From Erythrobasidium yunnanense (lineage: Eukaryota; Basidiomycota; Cystobasidiomycetes; Erythrobasidiales; Erythrobasidiaceae): DNA of 64,000 nucleotides. Shown piece after piece: positions 21,990 through 61,113 of the stretch (positions within the stretch are counted from its first letter, which is position 1; each line of letters starts with the position of its first letter). The stretch lies in contig BCJC01000005.1 in the NCBI GenBank assembly GCA_001600175.1, positions 104,471 through 168,470 of the forward strand, written 5' to 3'. Both the position numbers and the translations under genes were made by a program. Under the pieces are notes generated by a model. The model was not told where the DNA came from, ran no database searches, and saw only the letters and a program-made list of their open reading frames with translations.

Positions 21990-22412
21990 CCTTTCTTCTT
22001 CGACTGATCAACGACACAGCGTAGGCTTAGCGAATTGCAGGAAGCCTTTCCAGGCACGGCCTTCCTCATACTGCCAAGTTTTCTGTCCCACCTTACTCAG
22101 AGAGCATACACATTCCTCGACAGCCGGCATATTGATCCTCCAGCAGATTCGAGGTCCGATGTTCATCGGAGCCTAATTCTCCTGTCAGCCCCGCATAAAC
22201 CAAAACTCCGCCTCCATTCAAAGATCCAGGCGGGTGAGTCTTGGAGCGTCCACCTCTTCTCTGCCACTACCTAGGGGAAGGATAGAGAGAAGCAAGTCCA
22301 CCTGAGACTTCCTTGAAGAAATGCTATTGACGAAGGGAGGGCCCTCTCTTGCTTCCTGCCTCTCCATCTTTTACTTATCTCCTCACACACGTCTTCCATC
22401 CTCGCTGTCACC
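21990..22412. promoter_or_regulatory. divergent promoter, rhamnosidase and sugar porter
   Basis: The 423 bp between the two start codons have no exon I can support. A CCCCGC word near 22184 fits the known CreA/Mig1 glucose-repression site (SYGGRG in reverse), which would suit sugar-use genes. A single such hexamer is weak evidence. Confidence 0.4.
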
Positions 22413-35571: not shown

Positions 35572-35917
35572 CAGAACGAAGTGACCTTTGCGAAAAGCGT
35601 AGAGGCCTCCCGGATCGAGATACAGCGCAAGCTACGGCAAGACCGGCCAGTCTGGGTTGAAGGAGCAATGAAGCTGTAGACACGCTATACGCGCACTTTC
35701 ATAGCAAGAAAGCTCAGTAGCGGTCTATTCGGTGGAAGCAAGCCTTGCTCTCGATTCTTGCGGTCCGACTTGGTCGAAAGCGCTATCAACAACGACTTGA
35801 AAGAAGCCGCAACTGCAGAAGCCATATCAAAGCTACCTTTCTGTCTCTACCGTGTTTCAATACGCTCGAAACAGGCTGGAGAAGCCTCGTTGCGCGAGAG
35901 CGCCAATCATACTATAG
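35572..35917. promoter_or_regulatory. divergent promoter of repressor and Zn2Cys6 regulator
   Basis: The 346 bp between the start codons of the two regulator genes contain no exon I can support. I looked for the 16-bp inverted GGRTAA...TTAYCC element reported for ascomycete quinate activators and did not see a full copy. Confidence 0.45.
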
Positions 35918-38804
35918 ATGTCTGCAAGTCAAGGAAGCACGACTATTTCGACCAGCACTGGAGAAGCAACACCCTCGCAGCCTGCAAGAAAACGAGTGCG
36001 CCAGTCTTGCGTAGTTTGCAGAAGAAAAGCAAGTCTCCTCCTTGGGTCCGCTTGTCGCAATCCATTGCTGATATCTGTTTCTCCCATCTACAGAGATGCA
36101 AATGCGATGGAATAGCTCCAACATGTGGTTCATGCGCCTCGAGAGGCATCAAGTGCGAATGGACAGACGTGCGAAAGCGGGGACCACCTCCTGGAAAGGA
36201 GCTCAAAGCCGAAGTGCAGCAATACCAGACTCTTCTCTGGCATCTTTTCAAACTGCTACCGCCAGTACACGATGTGTGTAAGGCGATGCTGGGTGTTGGG
36301 GAGGATCAACCAGACGGTCACATACAGCAGGCGTTCCATTCCATTAGACTGCCAGACAAGATCCAGCGGATAGACTTCAAGGAACTCAAAGATCATCTAT
36401 TTCGTAATCTGGAGATAGCGCCATGCTTTTCGCGAGAGGCGATGGAGAGCTCAGAGATAGACGCCAGCGGGCGGGAGCAAACGCAGGAGATCCAGCCGAG
36501 AGCCTCAATCTTGTCGTCAGATGCACAGCGATCCTCCCTCGACGACGGCGACGACATGGATCTCGATCCCCTCTCAGCTTTACCGCCGTCACTGCTGTCG
36601 AGGCCTTCACAAGCAGATGGCTTCCAACTTTCGAGCAACCCGCCGCCAAGTATCAGCCAGCTGGTCGACTCTACGTCAGATTTGGACGTCCCTTCGTTCC
36701 CCTTTGGCTCGGATCCCAGCGGATTCGACTTTTCGGGCTTTGCGACCGAAGAACCGCAAGCTTCCACGTCTTCTGCACAAGCAGGCTCATATAACAGTAA
36801 GTGAAGGCTTAGTAAAGGTGACCTAGCTCTAACACAGTCACTCCATATCCAGACGATCATGGCCATGCGAACGATATTTTCAGCCGCCTTAGTCCCATCC
36901 CTTCGCATTCCGGCAATCTCAACAATCAAACAATGGTGAATGGAGAAACAATGTTTATGCTTGGCTATCTTCGCGACATGACACCGCAGAATATTACCAA
37001 CGTCAATCAAAACAACTCTGCTTCTACGCATTCCTCCAACCTGGTCAACGCAGCTATACAGCCTATCAAGACTCATTCAAGCATCGATATGCCAGTACAC
37101 ATGGAGACCAAAGCGGGCCCCGCTCCGCCAGCTGCAGGCCTAGCCGGTCCTCTCTCAGAATCCAGCGCAACTCTTCGAGCTGCCATTGCCGATGCATATC
37201 TCACATACCTACATCCTGCTCTTCCCATGTTATCTCGCGCTAGTCTTCTCATGTGGGCACACCAAGGTGCCGATTCAGATGGTTCTCCTGGCGATTTCCC
37301 CGCACCCGGTCCAGTCATCAGCCGAAGCCTGAGCCTGGCCTTGACAGCGTTGACACTTCCATACATAAATTCTGGAGAACTCGACACTGCAGTCGATGTC
37401 CGGGCAATGGAGCGTGAAGCCTACCGCTCGGTGCAGCAATCGGGGTACCACCCAAGCTTAGGAGATGTGCAGACCCTCTTGCTGCTCACTTTGCTTGCTT
37501 GGCAGAATGATTGTCGTCAGCTGGCTCGCAACTATCTTGGTACGCTCCCATTAGTGCTTGTCTGGCTCGATGCTGAGATTTCATACCAACTCTTCCAGCT
37601 CAAGCCATTGCAGGAGCTTTCTGTTTGGCCATTCATCAGGCGGTGCAAGCTGATAGCAATCAGACGTCAGACCATACCTGCACCTGGCTAAGTCTCTCTA
37701 TCGTGGACTTACTTCTGGCAATCTCCTTGCAGCAACCTCCTCTTCTTTCCGGCAACTTTCAACTTCCCTCTGTGGCTTCTCACGGCGCTGATGAGTGGGA
37801 GCTATGGAAGCCCGAAGCACTATCTGACCTCATCAGCACATACGGAGCCGAAAGTAATTCTCCAGACAAGAAGAGAATCGCTCCGACATCTTGCCCTGCT
37901 CGGACTTTCTCCTTCTTCAACATGAAAGTACAGATCTGCAAGGCTATCCGCCAGGTTTACGAGGCGCAAATATTTACAGACTTGGAGATCCAGCGGGACG
38001 CGGTGCTGCGCACTATAAACGAGTTTGCGCCTCCCGCCGCGGACTCCCTCGACAAGTGGATGCGGCGCATACCCCAGCATGGCTTGGACTGCTATGCTCT
38101 TTGGATACACCTGAATGTACTCTTGCATGGCGCTAGGTATGTGTGCTTGCCGTGTTTAGCTAAGACAAGCTGAGCGATTCTCTAGCAGTTGTGCGGACAA
38201 TATACATACTTTTGCAACTACCCTCTTCGAGCATCGGATCGAGAAGTTCACGTACTACCGCACTCCCGTAATGGCTCACGCATCTTTGGTAGCCATCGCT
38301 GGCTTGCAGGCTGCTTCACAATCACCACTTCAAGGTTTGCTTAGAACGGCATTCACGCAGCTCGGACAGATTCTGCCAGTTGGAGCTAAGTACGCGGCAT
38401 CGATGGTGCAGGAGCCTGCCGTTCAACAGCATAGTAGCGGCGGGGCTTCTCAGATTGTGGCCGCCGCTCAGATAGATGCGACTGCTTCTACTCAGCTTAC
38501 GGGGTATGCAAGCTTGGAAGGATCAGACGCAGTACCTTTCAGTTGGGAATCTGCCTTCTCAGGCTCGAGTGAGACATTCCAGGACTCCACGCTGCTAGAC
38601 CTGTCTAGCAAAGTCTTCATGGAGCATGATTCGTAGGTCGTGTAAACATTTCTTGCGAGTCCCGCTAATGTCAAGCTCTGTAGAAACCAGCTAGATGTCA
38701 TTTCGCTGCTAGGCTACATAAAGGGACCTGCTAATATGGAAGCGAACCACGATCCTCCCACGGGTATGCTAGATGCGTGGCAACATGGATCTTTCTTCTC
38801 CTGA
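35918..38804 (+). CDS. Zn2Cys6 transcription factor, candidate quinate-cluster activator
   Basis: Nuclear DNA-binding regulator, 873 aa, six exons. The binuclear zinc cluster is complete only after splicing a GC-AG intron (36029-36093): CVVCRRK joins RCKCDGIAPTCGSCASRGIKC, matching CxxC-x6-C-x6-CxxC-x6-C. A basic linker (VRKRGPPPGKE) follows. The fungal-specific middle domain includes YLTYLHPALPML, SGYHPSLGDVQTLLLL and CTWLSLSIVD. An acidic low-complexity section lies near residues 190-270. The last intron (38633-38683) has its donor right after GATTC, so unspliced mRNA stops at 38636; splicing adds a 40-residue tail ending HGSFFS. Its place opposite the QutR-type gene suggests it is the pathway activator. 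Binding of another inducer cannot be excluded. Confidence 0.85.
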
Positions 38805-38834
38805 AGATGCCAGCGTTCCAACCAGTGCCTATCA

Positions 38835-40183
38835 TTATGGCCGTTGCCCCTCGTATGCATTACGAAGCAGGACAAGGAGCTTTTCCCTTTCCAGCGGTGC
38901 CGGATTCGGGTATGGAGTCTTGCTTGCAATGTCGGCGGCTCTTTCAAGATCTGCTTCGGCGAAGCCAAGCTCTTTGAGAGATGTCGGCGCATTCAGGCTC
39001 TTGGCCAGATCATAGAGACCGGTCGCCGCATCTTCCGCACCCAGCGCGTGTGCGAGCTGTGACATCCCTTTCTCGATGAATGTCGAGTTGTAGCGAACTG
39101 CGTGAGGCAGGATGACAGTGTGCGTTTCGGCATGCGGCATGTCGAAGCTTCCACCGAGCTGTTCAAATGTAGTCAGACCCAAGTCTTCAACCGGTACCTG
39201 ACAAAACCTACTGTATGACATAGCTTGTGATGCAAGCCCATGCCAACGGAGCCGAGGCACATTCCACAGATCATGGCTCCGAAGAGTGCTTCTGATCGAG
39301 CTTTTATGTCTTGCGGCGATCGCTGAAGAACTGGCAATGCGCCAGCAAGGCTAGCGACACCTTGAAGAGCTAGAGCATTCATTATGGGATTTGCTTCTGG
39401 CGCATAGAGTGCTTCCACCTGCATCCGATGGCGTCAGGTCCACCTTCTACTTGCGAGAATCGCAATAGCTTACGGCGTGTGCTATAGCGTTCATTCCGCT
39501 TGTAGCCGTCATTGACAGTGGCAGTCCTATGCTGAGATTGACATCATAAATGATGGTGGAAGGCAGTACTTTGAGCGTTCTCTGTGTTTTCTTCTCTCCG
39601 TTCTTGGTTTCGCCTAAGATCGGTGTGCACTCGGATCCAGCACTGTTGAGAATCAGCTCATGTTAGCTAGGCTTTATGAGCGTGAGCAATAAACACTCGC
39701 TAGGTGGTCGGTACGGAGATTTGCTTGATGCGACCATCTGAATAGAGAGCCAAAGCTTTGCCCAAACCGATGGTAGAGCCTCCTCCTACAGCGACTACGC
39801 AGTCGGCTTGTATCTTATTTGCATATTCGAGCGCTTCCAGAGTGATGTGTTCCGGGGTATGCATTGTCGCCTTCGTGTAGATGCCTCCGACCAGCTCTGG
39901 GTTGACGGCAGCTTTCAAGGCTTCTCCAACATCGACCTGCTGTGGTGTTGTGAGGAACAACGTCTTTGAACAGCCTTGGAGAAGCGGATTCAGCTTGGAC
40001 AGATGCAACCTCAGTTCGATAAAGAGCTCACCAAGCTTGCGGATTTCAGCTTCGAGAGACTCTCTGAAACCACAATATGTCAGAGATCCAAATATCACGG
40101 CTTTCTTGCGTCAACGAGGCGTACATTGCTAGGCCTTGACCAAAGACGACTCGATACGGAAGTGATTGGTAAACGAAGTTCAT
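38835..40183 (-). CDS. maleylacetate reductase, iron-type alcohol dehydrogenase family
   Basis: Reduces maleylacetate to 3-oxoadipate with NAD(P)H at the end of the hydroxyquinol branch of aromatic catabolism. Six exons give 354 aa, the normal length; introns are 39159-39211, 39419-39473, 39643-39700, 39975-40031 and 40064-40124. The N-terminal start MNFVYQSLPYRVVFGQG is typical. Cofactor site ADCVVAVGGGSTIGLGKA is followed by SVPTTYAGSECTPILGET, the signature of maleylacetate reductases, and SGMNAIAHAVEALYAPEANP. The intron between PTT and AGSE is of GC-AG type (donor GCGAGT). GMGLHHKLCHTLGG and PHAETHTVILPHAVRYN supply the metal-site region. It shares a 266 bp divergent promoter with the ring-cleavage dioxygenase that makes its substrate. 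Confidence 0.92.
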
Positions 40184-40350
40184 GATGCGTGTCAGACCGT
40201 TGTAGCAGAAGATAGTATTTGTGCTAGGAAGGCTGAGTCGAAAGGTGTCTTCATGTTCTTCTCTGGGCTCTCTGCCCTGGCGGGAGCTTCGTTCCGCTCG
40301 CTTGGAGAGAGGTCTCGCCGGAACACGAGGTCAGGATAAGATGCCCAGAC

Positions 40351-40388
40351 GATACGAGGCGATACGAGAAGAGAAGAGAAGAGAAGAG
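40351..40388. repeat. short tandem repeat in the reductase/dioxygenase promoter
   Basis: Two adjacent copies of GATACGAG at a 10 bp spacing run into a purine tract of GAGAA units. It lies between the divergent maleylacetate reductase and dioxygenase genes. Such tracts are common in fungal promoters and may exclude nucleosomes. Confidence 0.5.
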
Positions 40389-40449
40389 GTGTCATAGAGC
40401 TTCTGCCTTTTCCATCAGTTTCAACGATTCTTGCATCGTCACATCCATC

Positions 40450-41971
40450 ATGTCGCATCCTTTTGGAGAGAAGCATATAGGAAAGGCCGTCCAGGAAGCC
40501 ATTTCTCGTGAGTGCAGGGCAGCGGTAGGGCATCAGTCATGACCTAACGTAGTGATTCCTGCAAACAGGCGGAGTACGTCTTATGCTCTCGAGTGGATCC
40601 AGACAGCAAGCAGCAGGCTGACCGTGGGTTTCTCGATTCAGGCTCCCAGCGTCGAAGACCTCGCAAAGCTGCCCAACGTTACAGACAGTCAGTGGACACC
40701 TGTGTCGCTGGCTTGCATCGCGAGCTGATCCATATCAATAGTCCGCGCCGATACGATAACCGAAAAGGTCATTGAAGTCAACGCTGGCTGCAAGAATGAA
40801 CGACAGAAGTTCCTCCTCGAAGCTCTCGTCCGACATCTCCATGATTACACCCGTGAAGTCAGCTTGACCAGCGATGAGTGGATGTGAGCACGCCGTCTAA
40901 ACTTCGCTTTGCCCTGCATCTGGTCTGAGGTGAGGATATTTCGCAGGATGGCCATCAAGTTCCTCACAGAAGTCGGACAGACATGCACTGATTTGAGACA
41001 AGAGTTCATCCTGCTCTCAGACGTGGTCGGCCTGTCAGCACTCGTCGACTGCATGAACCATCCCGTCAACAGAGAGACCAAAGCGACCGAAGCTACAGTA
41101 CTAGGTCCTTTCTTCGTGGAAGACTCAAAGGATGTAAGGCGAAACCATGGGCTACGCAAGGCTGGAAATGGTGCTGAAACGATTCACTATACAGATCGCA
41201 ATGGGTGAAGCTATCGCTTCTGAAGGCAAGGGAGAGTACATGTATGTTACTGGAAGGGTTCTGGACCTCGACGTGAGTCTCCTGCTAGGTTCATATTCAG
41301 CTTAGCGTTAATGCAGGGTTCTTGCAGGGAAGTCCGGTCGCAGGATGCGTGATCGAGACGTGGGAGACCGATGAAGATGGATACTACGATACTGTAAGCA
41401 GGATAAGGTATTGATGAAGCGTATCTCTCGCTGAAAGTCTGTCCATGTTGCCAGCAATACTCTGATCGTGCAGAGGCGGACTGCCGCGGCCGTCTCACCA
41501 CAGACAGCGATGGAAGATACGCCTTCCGTGGTGTGCGTCCAGTAGCCTATCCCATTCCCAACGATGGTCCCGTTGGAAAGCTTCTGCGCACAATGGAGCG
41601 ACACGTCTTCCGACCATCTCATCTACATATGTGGCTCAAAGCGGAGGGCTTCGAAGATCTAGTTACGGCTCTTTATCCGAAAGGCGGTGACGACTACCTG
41701 GGTTCTGACGCTGTCTTTGGAGTCAAGACCTCGCTCATCTGCGAGCTGACGCCCTGCTATGACGAAGACAAGGCTAAGAAGCTCGGCTTCAAGAGCGGTG
41801 CTCCTTTCTGGGAACTCGAATGGGATTTCTACCTGCAAACGGTCGAGCAAGCCTTGGTGGAAAAGAAGAAGAGCTTGCCTCACTACTATCAGTTTTCGGA
41901 ACAGTAAGCCAATTTGCAGCATAAAAGTTGAGTAACTGCTGATGTTATTTGTTTGCAGATCATCCTCGTAG
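40450..41971 (+). CDS. intradiol ring-cleavage dioxygenase, probable hydroxyquinol 1,2-dioxygenase
   Basis: Non-heme Fe(III) enzyme that would open hydroxyquinol to maleylacetate. About 347 aa. The N-terminal domain has TITEKVIEVNAGC, LVRHLHDYTREVSLTSDEW and FLTEVGQTCTDLRQEFILLSD; the catalytic domain has ATVLGPFFVEDS, DEDGYYDTQYSD (first Tyr ligand), RPVAYPIPNDGP (second Tyr) and FRPSHLHMWLKA (both His ligands). This matches the catechol/hydroxyquinol branch rather than protocatechuate 3,4-dioxygenase. Two points are open. The N-terminus joins either by a 5-nt micro-exon (40569-40573) or by one longer intron (40525-40641). The last intron (41904-41958) shifts the end from 41907 to 41971 and adds SSS. 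It is paired head to head with maleylacetate reductase. Confidence 0.88.
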
Positions 41972-42320
41972 CTTGTACCGGTCAGCCTGTCTTTAGACGA
42001 GACTAGCGGGTGGCTTCGACAGCGATTTAGCTGATCTCGATCAAGCTGCGTTATATCTTGTTCAGGATGTATATAAGAGCTGGGTTAGCAAACTGTTCGT
42101 CGCTCTGCAGAGGGCTCAAGCCAAAGTAGGCGGCCAATCAGATATTGCCTGACTTCTATGTTTGAAGCTGAGCCGAACTCTAGCACTGAGCACAATACAA
42201 CCAGCGATTGTGGAACATTATACCTGTCAGGCTTGCGGCTGCTAGCGTCACTACACAAGCTCTATCAACAAGCCTAGCATCCAAGCACGACATTGCGCGT
42301 GTCCTGACAAAGTCGGGCCT
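41972..42320. other. convergent intergenic region
   Basis: The dioxygenase and the dehydroquinase genes both end here. I see no further exon; the sequence should hold their 3' untranslated regions. Confidence 0.5.
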
Positions 42321-43185
42321 CTACTTCGCCACGTTTTGCACATAGTTGACGATACCACGGCGAGCGAGCTAACGACAGACTGGATTCAGCTTTGCTTCAA
42401 GCTTACACGTAGACGCGCGAAGCTCACCTCGTAGCCAAACATTCCGCATCCGAACAGGCAGCCGGCTTTACAGACCGCAGCAGTCTTTGACTTGCGAAAC
42501 TCTTCTCTGGCTTCGATGTTGGAGATGTGGATCTCGAGTACTGGCGTATCAACTCCGGCAATCGCATCTCGGACGGCGTATCTGTCGAAATCGAATTAGG
42601 CTTGTTTTAGTGACGGATAGCTGATAAGCTCACGAATCGTGGCAGAAAGCTCCAGGACTACACAAAGGCAGAGCACAGGTTAGCCAAACTGCTGGATTGG
42701 GTTGGCCATGACTTGCTTCATCAGGATTCCGCCAAGGCATCGCGAGTAGTGAATGAGGTCTATGAAGACTCCTTCGTGATTCGTCTGTGCGCAAACCCTG
42801 AACATTTCAGAGTATCAGCAGGCTCCCAGACTAACGAGCTTTCAGCTCCCATCAAACTCACACATTCACACCGAGCTCTTTGCCCAGCTCTGTTACGCGC
42901 TGCTCAATCTCTGCCATTGTGGTAGTGCCATAGATCTTGGGATCCCGTGCACCGAACAGGTTGCTTTTTGGACAACATCAGCTTCTGGAAATGGGGTGAA
43001 GGAGTGTAGGCGGACTGGTTGGGGCCAGACAGCAGAAGGAATGTCTTGCTATCTCGAGGAATACGCCCACCGTCATCTGGGTCGACGTTCTTGAGCCGTC
43101 TTACACCATCGCTAGCCTTGAGATCTCGGATGTCAGACTATGGCAGAGCCAGCGCGGCACAGATGCTTACTGCTGATGCACTCAT
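42321..43185 (-). CDS. qutE: type II (catabolic) 3-dehydroquinase
   Basis: Converts 3-dehydroquinate to 3-dehydroshikimate in quinate breakdown; forms a dodecamer in relatives. Exons were found by hand and give 181 aa: 43171-43185, 43016-43137, 42862-42963, 42717-42797, 42634-42657, 42428-42581 and 42321-42368. Motifs are KTFLLLSGPN, GARDPKIYGTTT with the active-site Arg and Tyr, QTNHEG, LMNPGAFCHDSYAVRDA with the catalytic His, and LEIHISNIEAREEFR. The intron inside LMNPGAF (42658-42716) is GC-AG with donor GCAAGT. The first exon is uncertain: it needs a 33 bp intron and the start could lie elsewhere. The 42964 junction gives GPNHN where relatives have GPNLN, so that border may be slightly off. 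It is the classical companion of the permease and dehydrogenase genes nearby. Confidence 0.85.
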
Positions 43186-43361
43186 GGCGCTCGTCGATGT
43201 CCTTCAAGCGAAGCCTCCAAAGAAACGAGAGGCCCATGGATAAGGCTAGCGGAATACGATTTGCCTGAATCTGCAAAGGGAGGCCAGAAGATTGAGAGGG
43301 CTCCTTCAGCATCATACCCACCTCCTTACCGTCATCCACACCCACATTTCGAGCACCCATT

Positions 43362-44727
43362 ATGGCGCTATCGCAAGAGACCAAATCAAAGCCGGGCAAG
43401 ACATTCTTGTTCGGGTACCCTCTTCAAGGCACATGTAGGCTGCTGGGTCTAATGTTGTTTCAAGCAAGTCTTGAACTAACTTGCTGTTACAGATGCTCCC
43501 TTCTTGCACAACACAATCTACGAACTGGCTGGAGTGCCGCAGTGCGTAAAGATCTGCCATCCTAACCCCAGGAACAGCTTTGTTACTGACTATGTTGGCT
43601 GTACAAGAAAATACACCAAAGTCGCGACACGGCGCTTCGAAGACATCCTGGAAGCCACGAAGCAGCCAGACTTCGTAGGCGCAGCTGTCACAATGTAAGC
43701 ATACTCTTTCTCCCAGCATGTAGTCAGTGAATCAAGCTCATGTCGTTTGCTGCAGGCCCTACAAGGTGCAAATCGTAGCGCAGTGCGATGACTTGACACC
43801 AGAAGGACGTGCCATCGGTGCCTGTAACACTATATGGTTGAAGAAGGGCAGTGCCGGCTACACCAAGCTCGTTGGACATAATACCGAGTAAGCTTACCAT
43901 CTCATTCTGCGCTAGACTTAATGAGTGACCGTGTCCTGCTTAGCTGCGTAGGTATTCGCGACGCCTTTGTGCATGCTGGCTTTCCGGCTCAGAAGGGCCA
44001 GACTCCTCGAGCTGGTGCAATAGTTGGAGGAGGAGGAGCTTCTCGGTAGGTCGGCCTTCTGACTGTGCTTTCAAATGCCCGCTGATTGGATCTTACAAGA
44101 TCTGCCGTTTACGCCTTGGCCGTCAGCTTTGGGTGCTCTCCCATCTACGTGATCAACCGTGATATAGCAGAAGTAGAAGCGATGCAAGAGTCTATCAAAA
44201 TCGCTGCATCGGCGAACTACCAGCCAAATCTGATCCACGTCAAGACCGCAGAAGAGGCAGCAAGCATGGCTGCTCCAGCATTCATGTATGTTGCGTTTCA
44301 GTTTAGTATTCATTATCATGCTAATAAGCTGGGCAGTGTATCTTGTATTCCAGATTCTCCTCCTCAGACATCCGAGGAGAAGGAAGCACGAGCGGTCTTG
44401 AGTGCGATTCTGAACAAGCCGGGGAAAGGCGCGTTCTTGGAGATGGTAAGACAGCAATTTGGAAATTACGTATAAAGGCAGGGACGTGGCTGACGCTCTT
44501 CCGGGCAGTGCTATCATCCCAGTCTCGATACAGCTATCTCGCGCTTGGCCGAGGCGGCAGGATGGCATGTCATAACTGGAGAGAAGGCAATGATATACCA
44601 AGGCATCGAGCAACAGAAAGCATGGCTAGGATGCCGGGAGGAGGACCTCAAAGTAGCCGAGGTGGTGCGCATAGTTGGCGAACGTGTCCGCGGCGACAAA
44701 GCTGCCAACCGGGCTCCACCGGAGTAG
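43362..44727 (+). CDS. quinate/shikimate dehydrogenase-like protein, copy 1
   Basis: NAD(P)-dependent oxidation of quinate or shikimate, the entry step of the pathway. Eight exons give 318 aa. The substrate domain has YAPFLHNTIYELAG and GAAVTMPYK, whose Lys is catalytic; GACNTIW and HNTDCVGIRDA give the partner Asp. The nucleotide domain is AIVGGGGASRSAVYALA, with IYVINRD after the second strand. The usual SxS substrate motif is missing (GYPLQGTYAPF), which suggests a substrate other than plain shikimate. The gene is divergent from the dehydroquinase by about 180 bp, the same order of steps as in the pathway. It may be the true quinate dehydrogenase, but three related genes in this cluster make the assignment open. 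Confidence 0.87.
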
Positions 44728-45090
44728 GATTACTTTCAAGCGCCGAAGGCTCTGTGACTTGATCCGTCCCGTCTATACTTGACAGCATGCATCGAGCGGA
44801 TCCGTGATGAGCCATCAACGGTACATCTCGCTCCTATCCCAGGCTTTGAGTTCCAGGACGCTAGGATGTCCTATCCGTATTATTGCTTGCGTGATTGAGA
44901 ACCCCTTCCAGGCCCTGGAACCTGTAAGCGCGGGGCACGAAGGTCAAACTCCACCCGGAGACCCCTGACACGGATATCCACAGGAGCTATAATCCGGGTC
45001 TCCTTCTGCCTTTCGCTTCTTCTTGTTTCTTCTGCTGCTTCATCTTCTTCATCAATCTCCTTCCGCCTCCCAATTCTACCTTCTCACAAG
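44728..45090. promoter_or_regulatory. quinate permease promoter with two inverted repeats
   Basis: This 363 bp stretch before the permease ATG contains a 7-bp-arm palindrome, TTCCAGGCCCTGGAA, at 44906-44920. A wider inverted pair, GGAGACCC at 44957-44964 and GGGTCTCC at 44996-45003, lies nearer the start. A half copy of the first (TTCCAGG) occurs near 44850. The permease-proximal end is pyrimidine-rich, like many strong fungal promoters. Which protein binds is not known from sequence; the Zn2Cys6 regulator is an obvious candidate. Confidence 0.5.
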
Positions 45091-46919
45091 ATGGGCAAGT
45101 TCTTAGACAAGATCAAAGCTAGCAAGAATGACACTGCTCCCGATGCCATCTACAACTGGAGACTCTATGCTGCTGGTGTCTGTGCAGCCAGCGCTGCTGT
45201 CATGATTGGATATGACTCTGCCTTCTTTGGAACCTCGCTCGCCCTTGCTTCTTTCAAGAACGAGTTCAGCCTCAATCCTCCATCGTATCCGGCAGCCAAG
45301 TTCCGCACCATGTCTGCTAGTATGTCAGCTGGCTGGTGGGAGCAGGCACACTCACTGACATTGCCTTCGCAGACATCGTATCGTGCTATCAAGCTGGAGC
45401 TTTCTTCGGTGCACTCGGCGGCTACCCAACAGCCTTCTTTGCTGGTAGAAGATACGGAATGCTTATTAGTGCCATCGTCTGCTTCCTGGGTTCGGCCATC
45501 ATGCTGGCAGCCGGTGCGCATACTGGTCTTGCACCCATCTTTGCTGGCCGTGCTATCGCCGGTGTTGGCATCGGCATGGCTTCTTCTATGGCTCCCCTGT
45601 ACATCTCGGAAGTCGCCCCTCCCCAAATTCGTGGTCAGCTCATCGGAATGTACGAGATTGCTTGGCAGATTGGCGGCCTCATCGGCTTCTGGTGAGCAAC
45701 GCCTTACTTTAGAAACCTGAATATTCGTCTGATTGCCTGATTCGCAGGATTAACTACGGCGTCTCAAAGCACTTGCCGTCCGCACGCGTTCAATGGTTCA
45801 CTCCCTTCGCTGTTCAGCTTATCCCTGCCGGTATCTTCGCTGTCATGCTCCCTTTCGTCATCAAGGAGTCTCCACGATGGCTTCTATCCAAAGGCAAGCG
45901 CGATAGAGCTGTAGCCAATCTCTGCTACCTCCGCAGACTCCCGGCAGACCATCCTTACATTGTACAAGAGCTCAACATGATGACCACTCAACTCGAAACC
46001 GATGTTGCACAAGTCGGCAGCGGGTTCGCAGCCCCCATCAGAGCCATCTTCCGCAACTGGCGTCTGTCGCGTCGTCTCTTCCTCACTACCTCCCTCTTCA
46101 TCTTCCAAAACGGAACCGGCATCAACGCTGTCAACTACTATTCCCCTACCTTCTTCAAGTCGATTGGTGTGCAAGGCACCAACACTGCTCTTCTGACAAC
46201 TGGAGTGTTTGGCGTTATTAAGTCTCTCGGTGCTCTACTATGGGCTTTCTGGTGGGTCGACAAGTATGGCAGACGTGCAGTCCTCGTCTGGGGTTCGGTC
46301 GGCGGTGCTATCGCGATGGCTGTCATTGGAGCAATTCTTGGCAAGACGAACCCTGCCGCTCATCCGACCACCAGTCTCCCTCCTTCGGGACAAGCAGCCA
46401 TTGCCTTCTTCTACATCTGGACTGCCTTCTACGCAATCGGCTGGAATGGTACCCCTTGGGTCGTAAACTCTGAATCCTTCCCTGGATCTGTCAGACTTGT
46501 CTCCTCTACTACAGCAGCTGCATCCAACTGGGTGAGTCCTCTACTAGAGGACACTACAGCAAATGTTCTGATGATGATTCCTTTCTTAGCTCTGGAACTT
46601 TGTCATCTCGCGAAGCACGCCTACTATGTTTATCAAGATGGGTCACTCCGGATACGGAGTATATATCTTCTTCGCTGCCATGCAGACGCTGGCCGTCTTC
46701 TACGTTATCTTCCTCCTTCCCGAGACGAAAGGTGTCCCTCTGGAGTACATGGATGCTCTGTTCGACGATTCCAAGCCCATCACCGCTCATCGACGTGTCA
46801 TGGCCGAGGTAGAGAGGGACCAGCAAGACCGGCCAGCTTCAGGAGAGGCTACTCCACCCGCAAAAGAGGAGGTCGACCTCGTTGAAGACGCTGAAGCTCA
46901 TGTTCAATATAGGCACTGA
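45091..46919 (+). CDS. qutD: quinate permease (MFS sugar-porter family)
   Basis: Proton symporter expected to import quinate. Four exons give 553 aa; introns are 45320-45372, 45692-45747 and 46532-46589. Landmarks are YAAGVCAASAAVMIGYDSAF in TM1, GRRYGMLISA (loop 2-3), GRAIAGVGIGMASSMAPLYI, SEVAPPQIRGQL, ESPRWLLSKGKRDRA, NGTGINAVNYYSPTFF, DKYGRRAVLVWGS and PETKGVPLEYMDALFDD. This combination, with NYYSPT and a short charged N-terminus, is that of fungal quinate permeases. The sequence cannot fully exclude another carboxylated or neutral cyclitol, but the surrounding catabolic genes support quinate. The soluble C-terminus carries many acidic residues and could be a target for ubiquitin-dependent turnover. 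Confidence 0.9.
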
Positions 46920-51815: not shown

Positions 51816-53267
51816 ATGACCACCTATTGCGAACAACGCCCGAAAGCTGATCCCAAACAGCAAAGAAAGTACACAGCGATATACGGCGTAAGCTTCATCC
51901 AGAGCATACTTGCGCGCACTGCTCGCTGAAGTGTAGCCTTCCGCAGACTCCAATCTCCCACTCTGTTGCTCCGTCCCTCTTCGATATCATCTTCGCCGAC
52001 TTGGATCTGCCCGACTTCAAATACACTATTCGAGACACGAAAGAGGTGGAAACAAAAGATTCGGAATGGCGCATAGATATCCTAAAGCCCGACACAGTCG
52101 GTACCTGCGTGACCATGCCATTGAAGGTGAGTCGCAAAATCAATACAGACGAGATAGAGATCAATACACTGACTATGTCAATTACAAAGCTCGCTGTCAT
52201 GCCGCACGTGGACGAGATGACCGATCAAGCCAAAGCTGTCGGAAGCGTCAACACAACCTACTTCCGAGAGAGGCCTGATGGCTCTTCAGTGCATGTTGGA
52301 ACAAATCTAGATGTAGCTGGAGTAGGCAGCTCCCTGCTCTCTGCTTTGCTGGGACAATCCACGCCCTTTTCTGAAGAGACTCCGTTGACCTTCAGCAAAG
52401 GATCAGCTGCTAGTCTGATGATTGGTGCGTCTTCTTCTGCTTGTATTCGACCGGCACAGCCCGCTGAATTACTTCTCGACTCGACAGGTGGTGGTGGTGC
52501 AACGAGAGTGGGTGCCATCGCATATAAGGCGACCCTCCGGCTAATGCACCAGACTCGCAGGCAGCAATTTACGCAATGAACAAAGCTGGTCTATCTCCGA
52601 TATTCCTCCTCAATCGAGATCAAGGAGAAATGTGCGTATTTCGCTCACTCTGCAAGGCATGAGATATCGAGAAAGGAAAGACCGCTGATCTATTCACCTG
52701 TGATTATAGTGACGCGACTGTTCAACAATTCCCACAACTAGATATCCGACCCCTCACTTCTGTTGCGCAAGCCAAAGAAGCCCTGAAGCAGCTAGACGAT
52801 AGCGGCGTCACCCTGTGCGCTGGCGTTGGAGCCATCCCAAGTATCGAGCCCCAAAGCGATGCCGAGAAGAACGTATATGAGATCGCCAAAGTCCTCTTCG
52901 AATACCCGTATCCTTCGGAGCGAAAGTCGCAGCCAGCTGGATCGATGCAGCTGCCCGCAAAACCCTGCTTCCTAGAGATGGCCTACAAGGTGAGCTCAAG
53001 TATCGTTCGCGAGAGACAGGAGCTAATTCGAAATGGGTCACAGCCACGGGAAACGATCATGCGTGGAATCGCGGAAGCAAGAGGCTGGCATACGATTTGT
53101 GGTGTCGAAGTCGTCCTCGAAGGCTGCGTGAGTCTAATTTATCACCTTCCAAGTGTATAGATGCTGATACAATCGTTCTCTTTCAGTTTGAACAAGCCTA
53201 CCTGTGGACCGGTCGAATCGTACCTGCAAGCACGCGCGAGAAAGGTCGCAAGGCCCTGCGCGGGTGA
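51816..53267 (+). CDS. quinate/shikimate dehydrogenase-like protein, copy 3
   Basis: Eight exons give 340 aa: 51816-51887, 51947-52126, 52190-52424, 52488-52507, 52561-52631, 52710-52989, 53044-53127 and 53187-53267. The substrate motif is GTPISHSVAPSLFD, the catalytic Lys is in TCVTMPLKLAV, and the pair NLD in VGTNLDVAG replaces the usual NTD while keeping the Asp. The nucleotide motif is MIGGGGATRAAIYAMNKAG, assembled from a 20-nt exon and its neighbours. Fungal relatives of this branch are longer at the C-terminus and carry PRETIMRGIAEARGW and EGCFEQAYLWTG, as here. The last donor-like GTGAGT after ALRG could extend the protein, but the TGA inside it is the simpler end. Substrate within quinate, shikimate or a related acid is open. 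Confidence 0.86.
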
Positions 53268-53805: not shown

Positions 53806-56234
53806 CTAGAAGGAATAATCTTCAGAGTCCGAGCTTAGCTCTGAAGAGTCATCGTCATCTTCATCATCGTCGGAACCCTCGTTGGAGTCTGTTTCCCAAT
53901 TCATGCTATCGTCGGTCAAAGGTGTGGGAGAAGGAGCTGGCGGAGCCTTTCTCGTAGTCTTGTGGAGCGGAGCGACATTATCTGCGCTGAGGTCAATAGG
54001 TACAATTGCTCCGGTACGACCGTCTTGCCATCGAGCAGAGAAAGTAGCCTCGTCATCTTCTTCGTCCTTAGCCAGGCGCAGCTTCTTGCGAGGCGGTTGT
54101 GAGTCTAGGTGGGCGACACTCTGAACATTCACAAAGCCTCTGCCATGTGTGGTTATCGCTTCTGGTTCATTGTACGTCTCGAACCAAGGCAAGTTCTGCG
54201 TACAATAGCAGAAAGTTCAGACAATCTCAGCCAGGACCAGTCCGTGTACATGTCCACGACTCACGAAGTTGCGATATGTCGATTTCTTGATCGCACTGAC
54301 TGGGCATTCTGCACCTGTGATGGACCTGGAGAAGGTGAGGGAATGATCTCAGCTTCATTGGCCCAAGCAATCGCTGACACCTGTACGTACTTCCAATATA
54401 TAGCGTTAATAGCGTGAATATAGACCCTCTGGCCACCTTCATAGTCGTAGTGGGATGCATCGTTCGTGTCGGCATAGATCTTCTGTCGAATCTGCCCTCC
54501 TACGGCAATCCCCATCTCTTTGACCGGGCCACCTCCACCACCTCGAAGGCGAAGTACTAGATGAATTGTAGCCTCCTTGACGATCTTGTAATCTGAAGAG
54601 AGGAGTCAGTGTGCCCTTGCATAAGAAGCTAAGAATATACCCTGTAGTCTTCGACCATCCTCTAACTGATTCCCGGCAAACACTAGTCGCTGCTGATCGG
54701 GAGGAATGCCTTCGAACCCCTGGATTAGGCGCTTCACTTTGTCGATGGTTTCGTTTTCTCGACACTCTGTACCAATACCTCAGTCATGATCATAACATAA
54801 CAGGCTCTCAGGCCGGCTGTACGTTGCTGACTGACCGATAGTTATTGTCTTACCCGTCAGGGTCTTGATGAAAATCTGCATCTTTTTCTCATAGTTGGCT
54901 TTCATCGACAGGTTGCCAAAGAGACTAGCGGTCTGGGACAGTGTGTATGCATCGAAACCATAAAGCGGTAATAATTCGATCTCTGCTCCTGCTTCCAGTT
55001 CCAAGCCATCGGGGCTCTCCTGATTGTCGAATATTCTTGCGGCCGCCTTCGCAATGAAGTCTTGACGCTTAGGTGAAAATACATCGAATTGAAGCGTAGC
55101 TTCCGAGTTCTGAAAGGATGCACAGCTGTGTCAGAGATGATTACGGCTTCGGCCGTTGCGTTTAATGCCAGCTCACCTTGCCTGTGAGCTGTTCCTCCAC
55201 AGTGTAGCCCTCGTCTACTGCCATTGCTACAAACTGTCGTACTATACCGGGCTCTTTGGCTATTCCGTCCAGCCAAGGTTGGGTTGGCGCAAGGTAGTCC
55301 TGGATTGCATCTTCGGGATCTTGTACTGTTGCTTTGCTCAATCCAGTGATTGCATTGATCCCTCCAATGGACACCTTGACAGCAGATCGTCGGTGATGTG
55401 GAAGGGAGATCCACAGTGCCTCTCGATTGTGTATAGCCTGAAAGGTGAGTGCCGATGCGTCGGCATAGCGTCTATGTGTGAGAAGTAGGAAGGTGCATGT
55501 TTACGGTGATGTAGCCGCCTCTGGCGACTATTGACGCGGGTAGAGTCGATTCGTACTTGCTTACGGGTTCCAATGGAAAGGTTCCCAGGCTCTGTAAAAG
55601 GGAGACAGCATAAGACAAGCTTCGAAGGTGTACTGGATGTAGCGTTCACGTACCGGAGGCAATTGATGTGCTTTTCCATCATCCGGGACTCTTAGGGTGC
55701 GATGTAGCTGAATCTCGGTTCCGTTGACATGGATAGTGGAGCCGCTCGATACCGTATGAGCAGGTCCTTGCGGTACGGCTTGTGTATTGAAGTACGTCCA
55801 CCAGGAAGCGAGCGTCTCATCGCTTCAATATGACAACATGGATTCAGTCAGTTCACGTGAGAGGAAAGGGGTCAGCAAAAGCGTACGGTCGAATTCGCAA
55901 ACCGCCGGGCGATGCAGCGTCGTAGCTTGAAGAGTCATCAGCTACAGCAACTCTGAGGATGGCTGCTGGAGGATAAGCGATGTCGGTTCCCGTTGGTCTG
56001 GCGTAGCCCTGCGAGTCGGACGCGACATAACACATCTCAGATCAGGGAACTCCCGCGCGTAGCTAGGTAGCTACAAACCTGCTGTTCTAAGAAGTCACCG
56101 ATCTTGAGCTCCAAAGCTTCGTGTTTGAGAGCGAGCCAATCTGGCTGAGGTGGTCCGGTCCAGGTGAGATGACCTGGAGCTGATCTGTCGCTGCCATCGT
56201 TAGCTAGCTTGAGTCCTGAGATGCTGATGTTCAT
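53806..56234 (-). CDS. multidomain protein with internal ubiquitin, paralogue A
   Basis: Ten exons give 615 aa; the introns lie at 54196-54264, 54326-54390, 54593-54640, 54767-54835, 55110-55176, 55438-55504, 55592-55653, 55823-55886 and 56009-56078. Order: an N-terminal region starting MNISISGLKLANDG with TWTGPPQPDWL; ASWWTYFNT and a repeat-free beta-rich part; RQFVAMAVDEGYTVEEQLTG; a ubiquitin domain at about residues 342-417; then [40 protein letters not shown] and NLPWFETYNEPE; last an acidic tail (SDDDEDDDDSSELSSDSED). The C-terminal part resembles, from memory, an uncharacterised domain of many fungal and bacterial proteins. I do not know its function. No signal peptide or membrane helix is seen; a basic patch (PRKKLRLAK) could send it to the nucleus. 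Confidence 0.85.
54537..54881 (-). other. ubiquitin domain inside paralogue A
   Basis: Three exon parts join to 76 residues that begin [15 protein letters not shown], include EGIPPDQQRLVFAGNQLEDG and end LVLRLRGG. Leu8, Val70 and a Val at position 44 keep the hydrophobic patch. Lys6, 11, 27 and 63 are present; Lys29, 33 and 48 are replaced by Leu, Phe and Asn. It is followed directly by GGGPVKEMG, so a ubiquitin-like cleavage site sits inside the chain. Confidence 0.9.
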
Positions 56235-56650
56235 CGTTTGGGCTGAATCGACGCGTTTCCGAGTTGGGTCAGCTCGTGTTGGACAAAGAAGATACGCTCG
56301 ACACAATCGAAATATGAACTGGATGTATATGTACAGTATCTTTGAGAGCAATGCTTGCTACAATATACATGACGGCTTGGCCTTGACCTCACCCCACAAC
56401 AACACACTCCTGCCAACAGGATCCCGATTCATAGCCCGTTTCTCGCGCTTCCAGCGTTGCCTCCACCTATGCTACGTAGATTCAAGCATTTCAAGCAGAC
56501 TGATTCTTTATCAGCAGAGTAGATGAAGCTAGCAGAAAAGAAGGCTTACCTCAGATAATCTCACATGCTCCAGCTAGTCCGACGAGATTGTCGGTCTTGG
56601 CCATACCACAGAATACTTCATTCAGTCAATTATCCGATGTATTCCGGTTA
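56235..56650. other. spacer between paralogues A and B
   Basis: Promoter of paralogue A and 3' end of copy B, 416 bp. No exon I can support. Confidence 0.45.
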
Positions 56651-58999
56651 TTACGAGACCGAAATCTTGAGGCTGCGGCTCGCACTGCGCAGTGATGAGA
56701 CGGCGTCCTTAGTCCGGTCAAGCGGAACAACCAAGCCGGTATTACCCTCTTGCCATCGATGAGCGAAGCGCTCCTCCGCGTCCTTCTCGGCTTCGATCGA
56801 CCGTCGACGTTTTATAGTGGGACGCGAGTCAATTTCCAAGATGCTCTCAACGCTAGCAATAGCTTGCTGGCGTTTGTTAGCCCTTCGGGCTCGTTGTACA
56901 TCTCGTACCACGGCGTTTTCTACGCACAGAGAGCAGTCAGACAAAGTCGATCGATTGCGAGTGCTTAGCCTCAGATCGTGGGTTGACTTACGAAACACTT
57001 ATAAGTAGACTTCGTAATCTCACTATGTAGAGGGCCTCGCCCAGTGATTGATCTGCCCAATTATCCAGAGGCTCGTCAATTGGGCAAGAATCGCATGAGA
57101 ACGAGAGCGGCGAACTGAACTTACTTCCAGTGTGCAGCGTTGATGGCATGAATGTATACCTTGTGTCCACCTGCAAAGTCGTAGACTGAAGCGTCGTTCT
57201 CGTCCGCATACATCTTTTCCTTGATTTGACCGCCCACGGCGATCCCCATTTCTTTGGTAGGCGGATTTCCGCCGCCTCGTTGGCGGAAAATCAGATCCAG
57301 CCTAGCTCCGGTCTGGATATCGTAATCTTGAGGATGTAGGTGCCGTTTCGACAGCAAAAGCATCAGCGAGAGGAAGCAAGCGCTGGCCGAGCAAACACTG
57401 ACCTGATAGCGTCTTGTGGGACATCAGAGGATGACCTAGGCAGAGACACCGTATCTCTTGAGGGTCGACGCTCAAGCTTTCAGAGATAATCTTCACGATT
57501 GACCAGACAGTATCGGAAGGTTCACACACTGGCAGGCAGAAGTAGAGAGGCCACAGTCAGTAAGCATGCTGTTTCCAGGCCTTATATACCTCAGCATCAT
57601 GCTTACGGAACGGGATGATGTCGCGGACGCCGTCCCGAACAAAGATCTTCACTCTTCCTTGTTCGTAGTTTGCCTGCAGCTTCACTCCCTCGCCAAAGAG
57701 CTTGAGCATGTAAGATAAGGGTCTGCCTCTCAGGTATGCCTTCGGAGAGAGCTTGGCGTCTCTACTTCCGCTGCGAGCCCTAGGGCGTTCAGCGTCCTGT
57801 GGTGGTAGTCGCCGGGTAAAGCTTTAACTTCGAAGTCGGTGCGATTCCTAGGACATATGGGTATTTCAAGAGTAGCTTCGGAGTTCTGCTCGAAGTGATA
57901 TGACAGGTCAGCCTACCCGTACAATCGTCGCCGTTCGGAAGTATCAACTGACCTTGCCCGTCAATTGCTCCTCAACAGTATAACCTTCTTTTACATTCAT
58001 TGCAACGAATTGTCGTACGCTACCTGGCTCCTTTGCTATTCCATCTAGCCAGGGTTGAGATGGAGCCAGGTAGTCCTGGTTGCAATCTTTCGGATTCTGA
58101 AGCATTCCTTTGCTGAGGCCGGTGATAGCGTTGATATCTCCTACAGAGACCTTCACTGCTGACGTACGATAGCCAGGCAGGGAAATCCACAGAGCTTCAT
58201 AGTTGTACATGAGCTGCAGAGAAACGCTTATGTATCAGCTTTGCATGGTCACTGGAAGGGACATGATAGAACTCTTACAGTAATGTAGCCACCTCGTTGA
58301 ACAATAGCTGGTGGTCGATTCGCCGCATACTTGCTCACTGGTTCGAGAGGAAAGGTGCCCAGACTCTGCAAGGACGGCTTTAGGTGTGGAGGGGCTAGAG
58401 GCGCAGAGGTATGAGACATACAGGTGGTAGCTTGTGTCCTTTTCCGTCATCTGGTACGCGTAAAGTACGATGCAACTCGATACGTGTTCCATCCACATCC
58501 AGACCTGATCCGTCCGAGACAATCTTAGGTGCTACATTGCTACCATGTCGCGCGTTGAAAGTTGTCCACCATGAAGCGATAGTCTCGTTGCTAATTCGTG
58601 CAAGTCAGAAAGTATTACACATCAAAGCCGGCTTGAAGAGCAGCCTTACGGTCGGATCAGCAAGCCCTCTGCGGACGTAGCGTCGTAGCTTGACGACTCA
58701 TCAGTACCAGCAACTTTCAGTATGGCTTCTGTCTCGAAAGATATAGCGATTTCTTCGGTCGAGCCAGCCCCTAAAGAGTGAAGCGCGCCAGAAACGCGTT
58801 GAGAAAGCTGACCAGTCGAATTGAGGATATCGCTGCGCCCTACTTGCTGTTCTACAAAGTCACAGACGGCCTGGCTTAGTTCTTTGGGTTGCATTTCGAG
58901 CCAGTCTGGCAGAGCTGCGCCGGTCCAGCTGAGTTGGCCAGGAGCTGCTTTGTCGATGCCATCGCGTGCCAGCTTCAGTCCGGTGATGTTGACGTTCAT
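56651..58999 (-). pseudogene. paralogue B of the ubiquitin-containing family, probably decaying
   Basis: Same layout as its neighbours: MNVNITGLKLARDG start, QLSWTGAALPDWL, SYDATSAEG, ASWWTTFNARH, SLGTFPLEPVSKY, ALWISLPGYRTSAVKV, RQFVAMNVKEGYTVEEQLTG, then [37 protein letters not shown] and TPWYEMYNEPEG. The ubiquitin part is strongly changed: VKIFVRDGVRDIIPF replaces the start and IRCLCLGHPL the middle, though RQRGGG remains at the end. Here the first intron of the other copies is absent, so the N-terminal exon is longer. Reading frame breaks occur in two places, between EATLEI and KLSPKAY (a 32 bp intron could explain this one) and after EPEG before QAIASVES. Most splice sites are intact, so loss is recent or the gene still makes a shortened product. 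Confidence 0.65.
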
Positions 59000-59340
59000 C
59001 CTTGACAAGCTCTCAGGCCAGGCGAAAGCCTGCTTCGTGTCGGGCGGAGTCAGGAAGCGAGGGGTAAAGCGATGGCGGATACTAGCAAAGCATTTGTTAC
59101 AACGATGTGTTACTCAAAACTGTTTCATCATATAGATAGCGCTCGCCTTCTACAGCCAGCGTCTGGATACTGACTAATGTTCGATAGGGAGGCCTGCTCA
59201 AGTGACCATCGCTGCACCCTAACTCGACGCTAGCCTTTCTTATTATTCTCTCTCGACAATGTCATGCTCATAGCTGCTCCCAGTCAGAAGCTTTCTTGAG
59301 TCCGCTGAAAGATCGAGGAGCATCGAGCTTCTTGCCCTTT
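59000..59340. other. spacer between paralogues B and C
   Basis: Promoter of copy B and 3' end of paralogue C, 341 bp. No exon I can support. Confidence 0.45.
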
Positions 59341-61113
59341 TTAGTTGTCTTGTGAATGAATAGAAACCGCATGTAGCTTCTGCCAATCGATAGGTACTAC
59401 TTTTCCTGAATTGCCCTCTTGCCATCGAGCACCGAAGGTGCCTTCGTCATCGTTCTCGATGCGGGGTCTCTTGGAAGCTGGCTGCGAATCGATAATCGAG
59501 ACGCTATGGATATTGACGCATCCTCGACCGGTCTGTGTGACTGCTGCAGGCTCATTATACATTTCGAACCAGGGAAGATCCTGCGGAAGGATGTATATTG
59601 TTAAGAAGACCCTGTCGTGCGGGATTCATTGACTTACGTAGAGTCGATAAGCTGCTTCGTTAATCTCGCTGACAGGAGGATCTTCGCCGGTGACTGACCT
59701 GTGTACCAGTATGCGGAATAAGTATCTGCCAATTTGCGATGGGGCTAAAAGAACAGACTTACTTCCAATGTACAGCATTTATAGTGTGTACATATACCCT
59801 GTGACTACTCTCCATAGTGTAGCTGGACACGTCATTCGTGTCTTTGTATATTTTCTGCTTGTTTTGGCCGCCAACAGCTATACCCATCTCTTTGACAGGT
59901 CCACCTCCACCTCCTCGTAGGCGAAGAACCTGGTGTAGGGTACATTCGTTCTGGATGTGGTAGTCTACATGTTTAGGAAAGGGAATGAAGGTCAGTACCT
60001 CATCTCAGTGAAGTACAGATATTTGGTACCTACCTCTCAGGCACTTGCCATCCTCGAGATTCTGACTGTTAAAGATTAGGCGTTGCTGATCGGGTGGAGC
60101 TCCTTGTTGGTCTTGGATCTTCAGTTTCACTCTGTAGATTCCGTCATTCTCATTACAAGCTGTGCCAGAGGGAAAAGGAGCGAAGAACGCAGAGATCAAT
60201 CAGTCTACAGGCTAGACCATATCGACGTACTTCACAAGCGTACAGAGAGGAATTGTCTTGCCAGTAAGGGTCTTGACGTAGACGTTGAAGTTTGGCTGGT
60301 AGTTAACTTGCATGATCTGACGGTCGCCGTAAAGCTTGAAGATACAGGACATGGAGAATGATGCTATTGGCGGTTTGGGCAAGAATGTGATGACAGTTCC
60401 GGAAGGGAGTTCGACAGTGCTGCCATCCATTCTTATGGCATCCCCGGGCAAACTGTGGCACTTGATGTATCGACAGCTCCAGGTTGTAGCAGAGAAGCCT
60501 GCTCGTCCATAGTCTTGGTAATACCGATAGTTTGAGAGACTGCCTTGGGAAGCGACATCGAGTAAGAAAGAAGCGACCGAGTCGGTGACGACAGCTGGAG
60601 AGGCCAGACCGGTATTTGACGATCCGTTAAGAGCGATAAAGTTTGACCACCACGAAGCTAGAGTTTCAAGACTGTCATCGCAGATGTAAAGTCGTAAGAT
60701 GTAAAGTCGTAAGGTGAGCAAGGTCAGAGACACGTGCAGGAAAGGGGCCATTTAGGAACATACGGTCTGATGCGTAGTCCTTGAAGGGAAGTAGCGTCGT
60801 AGCTGGATTCTTCACCTTCAGAAGCGACGACGATGCTTGCTTCGGGTTTTAGGACGAAGTTAACGCTTAGCGGTCTGATGTAGCCCTGGCGCGTGAAACA
60901 ATTCATGAAGAACAGCGCTCAACGTACGCCTTCATAGCAGATACTGATACTCACTTGCTGCTCGATGAAGTCCAAACTACGCTCCTCCATTTGTTGTGGC
61001 TCCAGCTCGAGCCATTCTGCCAAAGGTTCGCCTGACCAGCTGAGAAGACCAGGAGCGCTTGCATCGACGTTGCTGTCGCTGGTTGCTTTCAGTCCTTTGA
61101 TAGTAAGATTCAT
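59341..61113 (-). CDS. multidomain protein with internal ubiquitin, paralogue C
   Basis: Seven exons give 445 aa; introns are 59581-59638, 59699-59762, 59965-60033, 60160-60243, 60673-60763 and 60886-60954. It starts [13 protein letters not shown] with [12 protein letters not shown], then GLRIRP and [11 protein letters not shown]. It lacks the RQFVAM...TVEEQLTG part of A and B; a different stretch with GYSATTW-like and [13 protein letters not shown] segments leads into the ubiquitin domain at about residues 222-297. After the ubiquitin come [55 protein letters not shown] and [16 protein letters not shown]. There is a basic KRPRIE stretch but no acidic tail. Splicing signals and divisibility of the exon sum support an intact gene. 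Function unknown. Confidence 0.83.
59909..60289 (-). other. ubiquitin domain inside paralogue C
   Basis: Begins [14 protein letters not shown], includes [18 protein letters not shown] and ends QVLRLRGG. Leu8, Ile44 and Val70 of the patch are kept; Lys48 is Gln and Lys63 is Asn. It is followed by GGGPVKEMG, as in paralogue A. The first residue is Asn instead of Met, so it cannot be translated alone. Confidence 0.88.

Follow-up and report, generated by a model that had tools for sequence, protein, structure and literature searches.

Three adjacent minus-strand genes, here called A, B and C, lie in a 64,000-nucleotide stretch of Erythrobasidium yunnanense DNA (the window; assembly GCA_001600175.1, contig BCJC01000005.1, positions 104,471 to 168,470), and in A and C a near-canonical ubiquitin is embedded in a larger protein. 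Profile comparison indicates that the fungal flanks are the two halves of one prokaryotic and phage protein family, and the ubiquitin sits about where the predicted structure of a bacterial relative has a low-confidence linker between these halves.

The arrangement itself is already known, and the initial annotation guessed rightly that other fungi might have such fusions. The available text of Sibbald, Hopkins, Filloramo and Archibald (2019; PMC6332867) describes ubiquitin fused to proteins resembling bacterial 'integral membrane proteins' (ubiquitin-IMP) in 87 species besides B. natans; we read 63 of the 88 as fungi, the wording of the source being ambiguous. According to the same text, most of the fusion-bearing fungi have the ubiquitin mid-partner, the partners of fungi group together in the tree, eukaryotic and bacterial members are intermixed elsewhere, and the IMP assignment followed similarity, not membrane segments (e-value of at most 1e-10 for the B. 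natans partner). By this description, A and C appear to be ubiquitin-IMP fusions. A 2021 review (PMC8122580) cites the work and, in its available text, gives no role; no functional study was found among openly licensed papers, in agreement with the annotation's remark that it knew of no assigned role. We tentatively interpret A and C, at somewhat less than an even chance, as fungal ubiquitin-IMP paralogues in which the ubiquitin inserted in the linker would act as a permanent in-cis mark, possibly nicked after Gly76.

Gene models

Genes A, B and C are arranged head to tail from 61113 to 53806, and the coordinates given by the initial annotation were exact, 53806 being the last base of the stop codon of C and 61113 the first base of the ATG of A. 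The tandem family that it proposed was recovered as two open genes and one apparently broken one. Its statement that all three share one architecture held for the internal ubiquitin of A and C, but A has no partner N-half and B is disrupted. Splice models of A and C were made by eye and homology from GT...AG introns (15 modelled introns in total, all GT...AG, 48–92 nt), and domain coordinates were derived by counting along the modelled exons:

53806..56234, minus strand: gene C, 10 exons, 615 amino acids, open from ATG to stop (spliced model, Pfam and family profile); domain order N-extension, partner N-half, ubiquitin, partner C-half, acidic tail
55035..55728, minus strand: partner N-half of C, residues 125–290, family profile 179.9 bits (model 11–178), introns within
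54537..54881, minus strand: ubiquitin of C, residues 342–417, K48 replaced by N, K63 kept, tail LRLRGG, two introns inside
54082..54521, minus strand: partner C-half of C, residues 423–524, family profile 82.1 bits (model 203–304)
56651..58999, minus strand: gene B, probable pseudogene; alignment spans 58999–56675, low end taken from the open reading frame (ORF)
57271..57652, minus strand: decayed ubiquitin of B, tail FRQRGG
59341..61113, minus strand: gene A, 7 exons, 445 amino acids, open from ATG to stop, without partner N-half
59909..60289, minus strand: ubiquitin of A, residues 222–297, K48 replaced by Q, K63 by N, tail LRLRGG
59473..59893, minus strand: partner C-half of A, residues 303–402, family profile 81.8 bits (model 203–302)

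Single exons cross both borders of the ubiquitin. In C, exon 55109–54836 enters it from the partner and exon 54592–54391 exits into the C-half; in A, exons 60671–60244 and 59964–59763 do likewise. Since these exons extend into the flanking protein, a ubiquitin transcript of its own would require breaks within exons in both genes, and is unlikely on these models.

An intron- and frameshift-tolerant protein-to-DNA alignment of gene B to C placed introns at the nine positions of C, all shared, and needed three frameshifts (near 58746, 57759 and 56862). Given these frameshifts and the decayed ubiquitin, B is probably a pseudogene rather than a further functional copy; that a single gene should contain three assembly errors is possible but seems less likely.

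The partner family

Searches of the A and C flanks against Pfam, NCBIfam, PHROGs and PDB sequences returned nothing meaningful, and only ubiquitin-type models exceeded curated thresholds. A translated search with the 100 residues of C ahead of ubiquitin matched three phage records (one only at E = 1) and six plasmids, with best E values of 3e-17 in the plasmid collection and 8e-16 in the phage collection. These relatives are ~290–385 residues long and also contain the conserved stretch that comes after ubiquitin in the fungus. At least 576 confirmed stretches of the family were found by scanning genome contigs, and the best 80 of them, which are those closest to the query and no random sample, were studied as loci. 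A scan of viral contigs with the flanks of C as query gave no matches, and one with the family alignment gave 17 loci. The resulting set of 105 relatives (80 genome, 17 viral and 8 other loci; L001 to L105) includes a few fragments.

A family profile was built from an alignment (A3) of 67 of the 97 genome and viral loci. It matched C twice, on either side of the ubiquitin at 342–417 (model 11–178 at residues 125–290 and model 203–304 at 423–524), and A solely with model 203–302, i.e., with the C-terminal half. A large protein on either side of ubiquitin, as initially annotated, was thus borne out in A and C; the C-terminal part, taken there for a domain of its own, is by the profile the second half of a bacterial and phage protein, the first half of which lies ahead of the ubiquitin. 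The best BLAST matches of the partner within the 105 relatives were a viral-contig member (L104, 2.5e-46) and a bacterial one (L030, 7.9e-42), E values being relative to this small set. Ubiquitin was not detected by BLAST in any of the 105 (best E 0.64), and no Pfam family was found at E 0.01 in the 67 relatives scanned. Nothing exceeded curated thresholds when seven relatives were searched against Pfam, PADLOC and NCBIfam, or when the 67-row family alignment was searched against Pfam and PDB.

The family is patchily distributed: it was present in 4 of 299 sampled genomes of one bacterial phylum, one of the four being the centre of the sample. In a quick tree of C and 100 of the 105 relatives (L001, L019, L084, L085 and L105 omitted), C had a very long branch and was placed next to myxobacterial members (support 81); this placement was judged unusable for tracing the origin of the fungal partner. 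Four Verrucomicrobial members (L046, L056, L057 and L059) have a long C-terminal extension that appears helical-repeat-like by eye. In phage record Rctr197k (L001:3738-4846) the family gene is split across two overlapping frames and annotated 'putative membrane protein'.

Insertion point and predicted structure

An AlphaFold model of relative L014, based on 67 sequences, had a mean predicted local distance difference test score (pLDDT) of 90.9 and a predicted template modelling score (pTM) of 0.88. Residues 184–200, between the halves, formed the sole run of three or more residues with pLDDT below 50. The alignment of C to the family profile stops at model position 178 ahead of the ubiquitin and resumes at 203 beyond it, so that the fungal chain has its ubiquitin at about this linker. 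Comparison of the L014 model with PDB folds gave no match at E ≤ 0.001, and comparison with predicted viral structures gave 17 at the same threshold; two Harvfovirus proteins ranked highest (1.4e-21 and 4.5e-21), followed by a Hyperionvirus protein named ubiquitin-like (2.3e-8).

The partner is probably a soluble protein of ~330 residues, predicted to be rich in beta-strands. In a crude transmembrane test (Kyte-Doolittle, 19 residues, ≥1.6), neither C (maximum 0.95) nor A (1.39) reached the threshold, nor did any of 103 relatives once their upstream stretches had been trimmed off; among the untrimmed ORFs, 2 of 105 (L035 and L041) reached it, near the N-terminus and outside the conserved part. 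By this hydropathy scan, the label 'integral membrane' appears doubtful for the partner.

State of the ubiquitin domains

The ubiquitin family model PF00240 (gathering cut-off 25.4 bits) matched C at residues 344–415 (E 1.3e-23, 83.0 bits) and A at 224–295 (E 2.6e-22, 78.8 bits), the only other Pfam model over its cut-off in either protein being the related Rad60-SLD. Against a reference ubiquitin sequence, identity was 56/76 in C, 48/76 in A and 26/76 in B. The initial description of A and C as nearly canonical stands, both having PPDQQRL and ending in LRLRGG. Both also retain the hydrophobic patch (L8, I/V44, H68, V70) as well as D39, R42, R72 and R74. K48 is lost in all three copies (N in C, Q in A, H in B), and K63 is retained in C only. 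The B ubiquitin ends in FRQRGG, keeping R72, R74 and GG, and is more diverged from C (20/76 identical) than three flank stretches that we picked for comparison (33/56, 67/87 and 32/43).

Of the 76 ubiquitin positions, 40 have the reference residue in A as well as in C, among them every one of 71–76. The chance of six given positions all falling among those 40 is ~0.018, a figure computed after the tail had been seen. The 14 residues following LRLRGG agree fully between A and C as well. The ubiquitin begins at residue 342 in C and 222 in A, with 341 and 221 residues ahead of it, and there is no Gly-Gly directly ahead of it in either, so that neither is an N-terminal, releasable ubiquitin.

Selection was compared between the two open paralogues of this one genome. 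The proportion of nonsynonymous differences (pN) was lower than that of synonymous differences (pS) in all parts compared (pN/pS 0.326/0.691 in the N-extension, 0.306/0.656 in ubiquitin, 0.214/0.883 in the C-half and 0.352/0.662 in the tail). Synonymous divergence (dS) was 1.6–1.9, and not computable for the C-half. Because saturation of the synonymous sites is complete or almost complete, these values point to constraint and give no measure of its strength.

Possible roles of the embedded ubiquitin

Lying in the linker between the halves, the ubiquitin would be expected on a surface loop. With a long chain ahead and no Gly-Gly before its first residue, it cannot be freed at its N-terminus as ordinary ubiquitin is by cleavage after Gly-Gly. 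As a permanent in-cis mark, it might bring the partner to ubiquitin-binding proteins, for which shuttle factors, Cdc48 or proteasome receptors and deubiquitinases are candidates, and would itself carry no K48 chain. A deubiquitinase may nick the protein after Gly76, at LRLRGG, with the halves perhaps remaining together. Three considerations weigh against this interpretation: cleavage would account for the conserved LRLRGG no less well than permanent display does; A has the ubiquitin without the partner N-half, so a whole partner plus mark fails for A; and the argument from selection is weakened by the saturated synonymous sites and limited to two open paralogues of one genome.

It is possible, though we consider it unlikely, that the fusion is a precursor that a deubiquitinase cuts after LRLRGG, releasing the C-half and leaving an N-terminal part with a free Gly-Gly, which E1/E2 enzymes would attach as a very large modifier. 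In ubiquitin-like domains whose sole use is in binding, the GG tail is usually lost. Here the tail is kept: LRLRGG and R42 persist in A and C despite 28 (A) and 20 (C) differences among the 76 ubiquitin positions, B retains R72, R74 and GG, and the post hoc chance estimate above, conditional on the 40 shared positions, points the same way. Such a cut, however, would split halves that are predicted with confidence to be a single unit in the bacterial relative (pTM 0.88), and the residues beyond the cleavage site are equally identical in A and C, suggesting that the tail may be held structurally. We prefer the permanent in-cis mark over a precursor; the prediction of both halves as one unit in the bacterial relative argues in its favour.

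The ubiquitin could also be an evolutionary passenger that entered a tolerant linker and drifts there without a role, its copies decaying by birth and death. This seems improbable. The disruption of B, the missing half of the partner in A, the divergence of the A and C ubiquitins from the canonical one, and the change of the B ubiquitin beyond that of its flanks are all consistent with drift, but pN is below pS in the ubiquitin of A and C, the hydrophobic patch and tail are retained in both, and ubiquitin is described mid-partner in most fungi with the fusion (available text of PMC6332867). That the ubiquitin and its flanks are separate genes joined by a gene-model artefact is scarcely credible: the splice models were built by eye and homology alone, but single exons span both ubiquitin borders in A and C, intron positions are common to B and C, and the two flanks are one protein in bacteria.

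Gene neighbourhoods of bacterial and phage relatives

The neighbours of the family gene were surveyed at the 105 loci by crude ORF calling and BLAST clustering. A helix-turn-helix gene (one representative of the cluster scanned, HTH_31) lay immediately upstream on the same strand at 28 loci (17 of 80 genome, 10 of 17 viral and 1 of 8 other loci). This count is a lower bound, the annotated, tail-ending gene of this kind at L004 having escaped ORF calling. An astacin-like metallopeptidase (one representative scanned) was present within three genes at 13 loci, with zero overlap between the two groups:

Helix-turn-helix gene upstream: L006, L062, L065, L068, L070-L073, L076, L078-L083, L086-L089, L092, L093, L096-L098, L100, L101, L104, L105
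Astacin-like metallopeptidase nearby: L003, L009, L010, L012, L015, L016, L019, L022, L023, L029, L036, L048, L051

Caspase- or trypsin-like peptidases were also seen nearby at L005 (annotation), L016 and L017 (Pfam), and L003 and L049 (by eye).

A C-terminal tail of the pattern V/I-x-x-G-x-W/F was found in all 28 helix-turn-helix proteins and in 49 of the 105 family members; the pattern was defined after the tails had been seen, and the counts are descriptive. Tailed family members occurred at 15 of the 28 helix-turn-helix loci, where both proteins thus carry the tail, at 34 of the 64 loci with neither neighbour, and at none of the 13 metallopeptidase loci. The family-member tail is therefore no commoner beside helix-turn-helix genes than at loci with neither neighbour. 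Among the 1109 remaining neighbouring ORFs, of which many are doubtful calls, the pattern occurred once, in a phage protein beside L099, whose family member is tailed; at L007 a helix-turn-helix gene without the tail lies downstream. A search for the tail as a DNA pattern in six whole genomes gave 19 matches versus 10 in a reversed control, too close for use. In the quick tree, a midpoint root with weak support separated the members with the tail or the helix-turn-helix gene from those near a metallopeptidase.

These neighbours allow a speculative and decidedly doubtful scheme, in which the partner is part of some regulatory or conflict module in bacteria and phages, and fungi took it up, lost the tail and use the inserted ubiquitin, not releasable at its N-terminal side, as a replacement recognition or turnover mark. 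One branch of the family would often follow a helix-turn-helix gene, often with a common C-terminal recognition tail, and some members of the other branch would adjoin metallo-, caspase- or trypsin-like peptidases. No description of a regulatory or conflict module with this partner family was found, and the available text of two eLife articles dealing with caspase and trypsin peptidases in bacterial conflict systems (PMC8195603, PMC7159879) does not describe the family.

Other genes in the window

At 33103–46885 and 51851–52579, Pfam identified a minus-strand ORF of the shikimate kinase/dehydroquinase type, an ORF with a sugar-transporter domain, and a shikimate dehydrogenase N-domain. The ORF with the sugar-transporter domain overlaps another frame near 45713, reflecting an intron or a frameshift. 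Together these ORFs are possibly a quinate-use cluster. ORFs for an alpha-L-rhamnosidase and a glycosyl hydrolase of family 3 (Pfam) were found on the minus strand at 19725–22007 and 28613–29917.

Comparison with known systems and implications

In the S27a/eS31 and L40/eL40 fusions, ubiquitin is N-terminal, is released, and has LRLRGG ahead of the ribosomal partner. A and C resemble them in carrying ubiquitin in frame with LRLRGG preceding the partner, but differ in the 341 (C) or 221 (A) residues ahead of the ubiquitin. As in Rad23, a ubiquitin fold lies in a larger protein, possibly as a docking module; the Rad23 model, however, scored 28.3 against a cut-off of 207.3, and here the ubiquitin is internal and near-canonical, with LRLRGG. 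The stand-alone bacterial and phage proteins share both conserved halves, ordered alike and with a linker between them, but BLAST found no ubiquitin in any of the 105, and the C-terminal tail found in 49 of them is absent from A and C.

Several features of the ubiquitin-IMP fusions, as the available account gives them (PMC6332867), recur here. Ubiquitin is in frame with the partner in A and C (in B only through three frameshifts), the partner has stand-alone bacterial relatives at E below 1e-10 (3e-17, plasmid collection), and C has the mid-partner ubiquitin of most fungal fusions, which A, having the C-half only, does not. A tandem of three, with one copy disrupted and one without the partner N-half, differs from that account.

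The fusion of ubiquitin with a prokaryotic-type protein is widespread and its distribution published, but no function, Pfam family or solved relative was found for it. By placing the ubiquitin at about the inter-half linker, identifying the surfaces that it retains and casting doubt on the membrane label, the present results make the fusion testable, and the gene neighbours of the bacterial relatives may reveal the partner's job.

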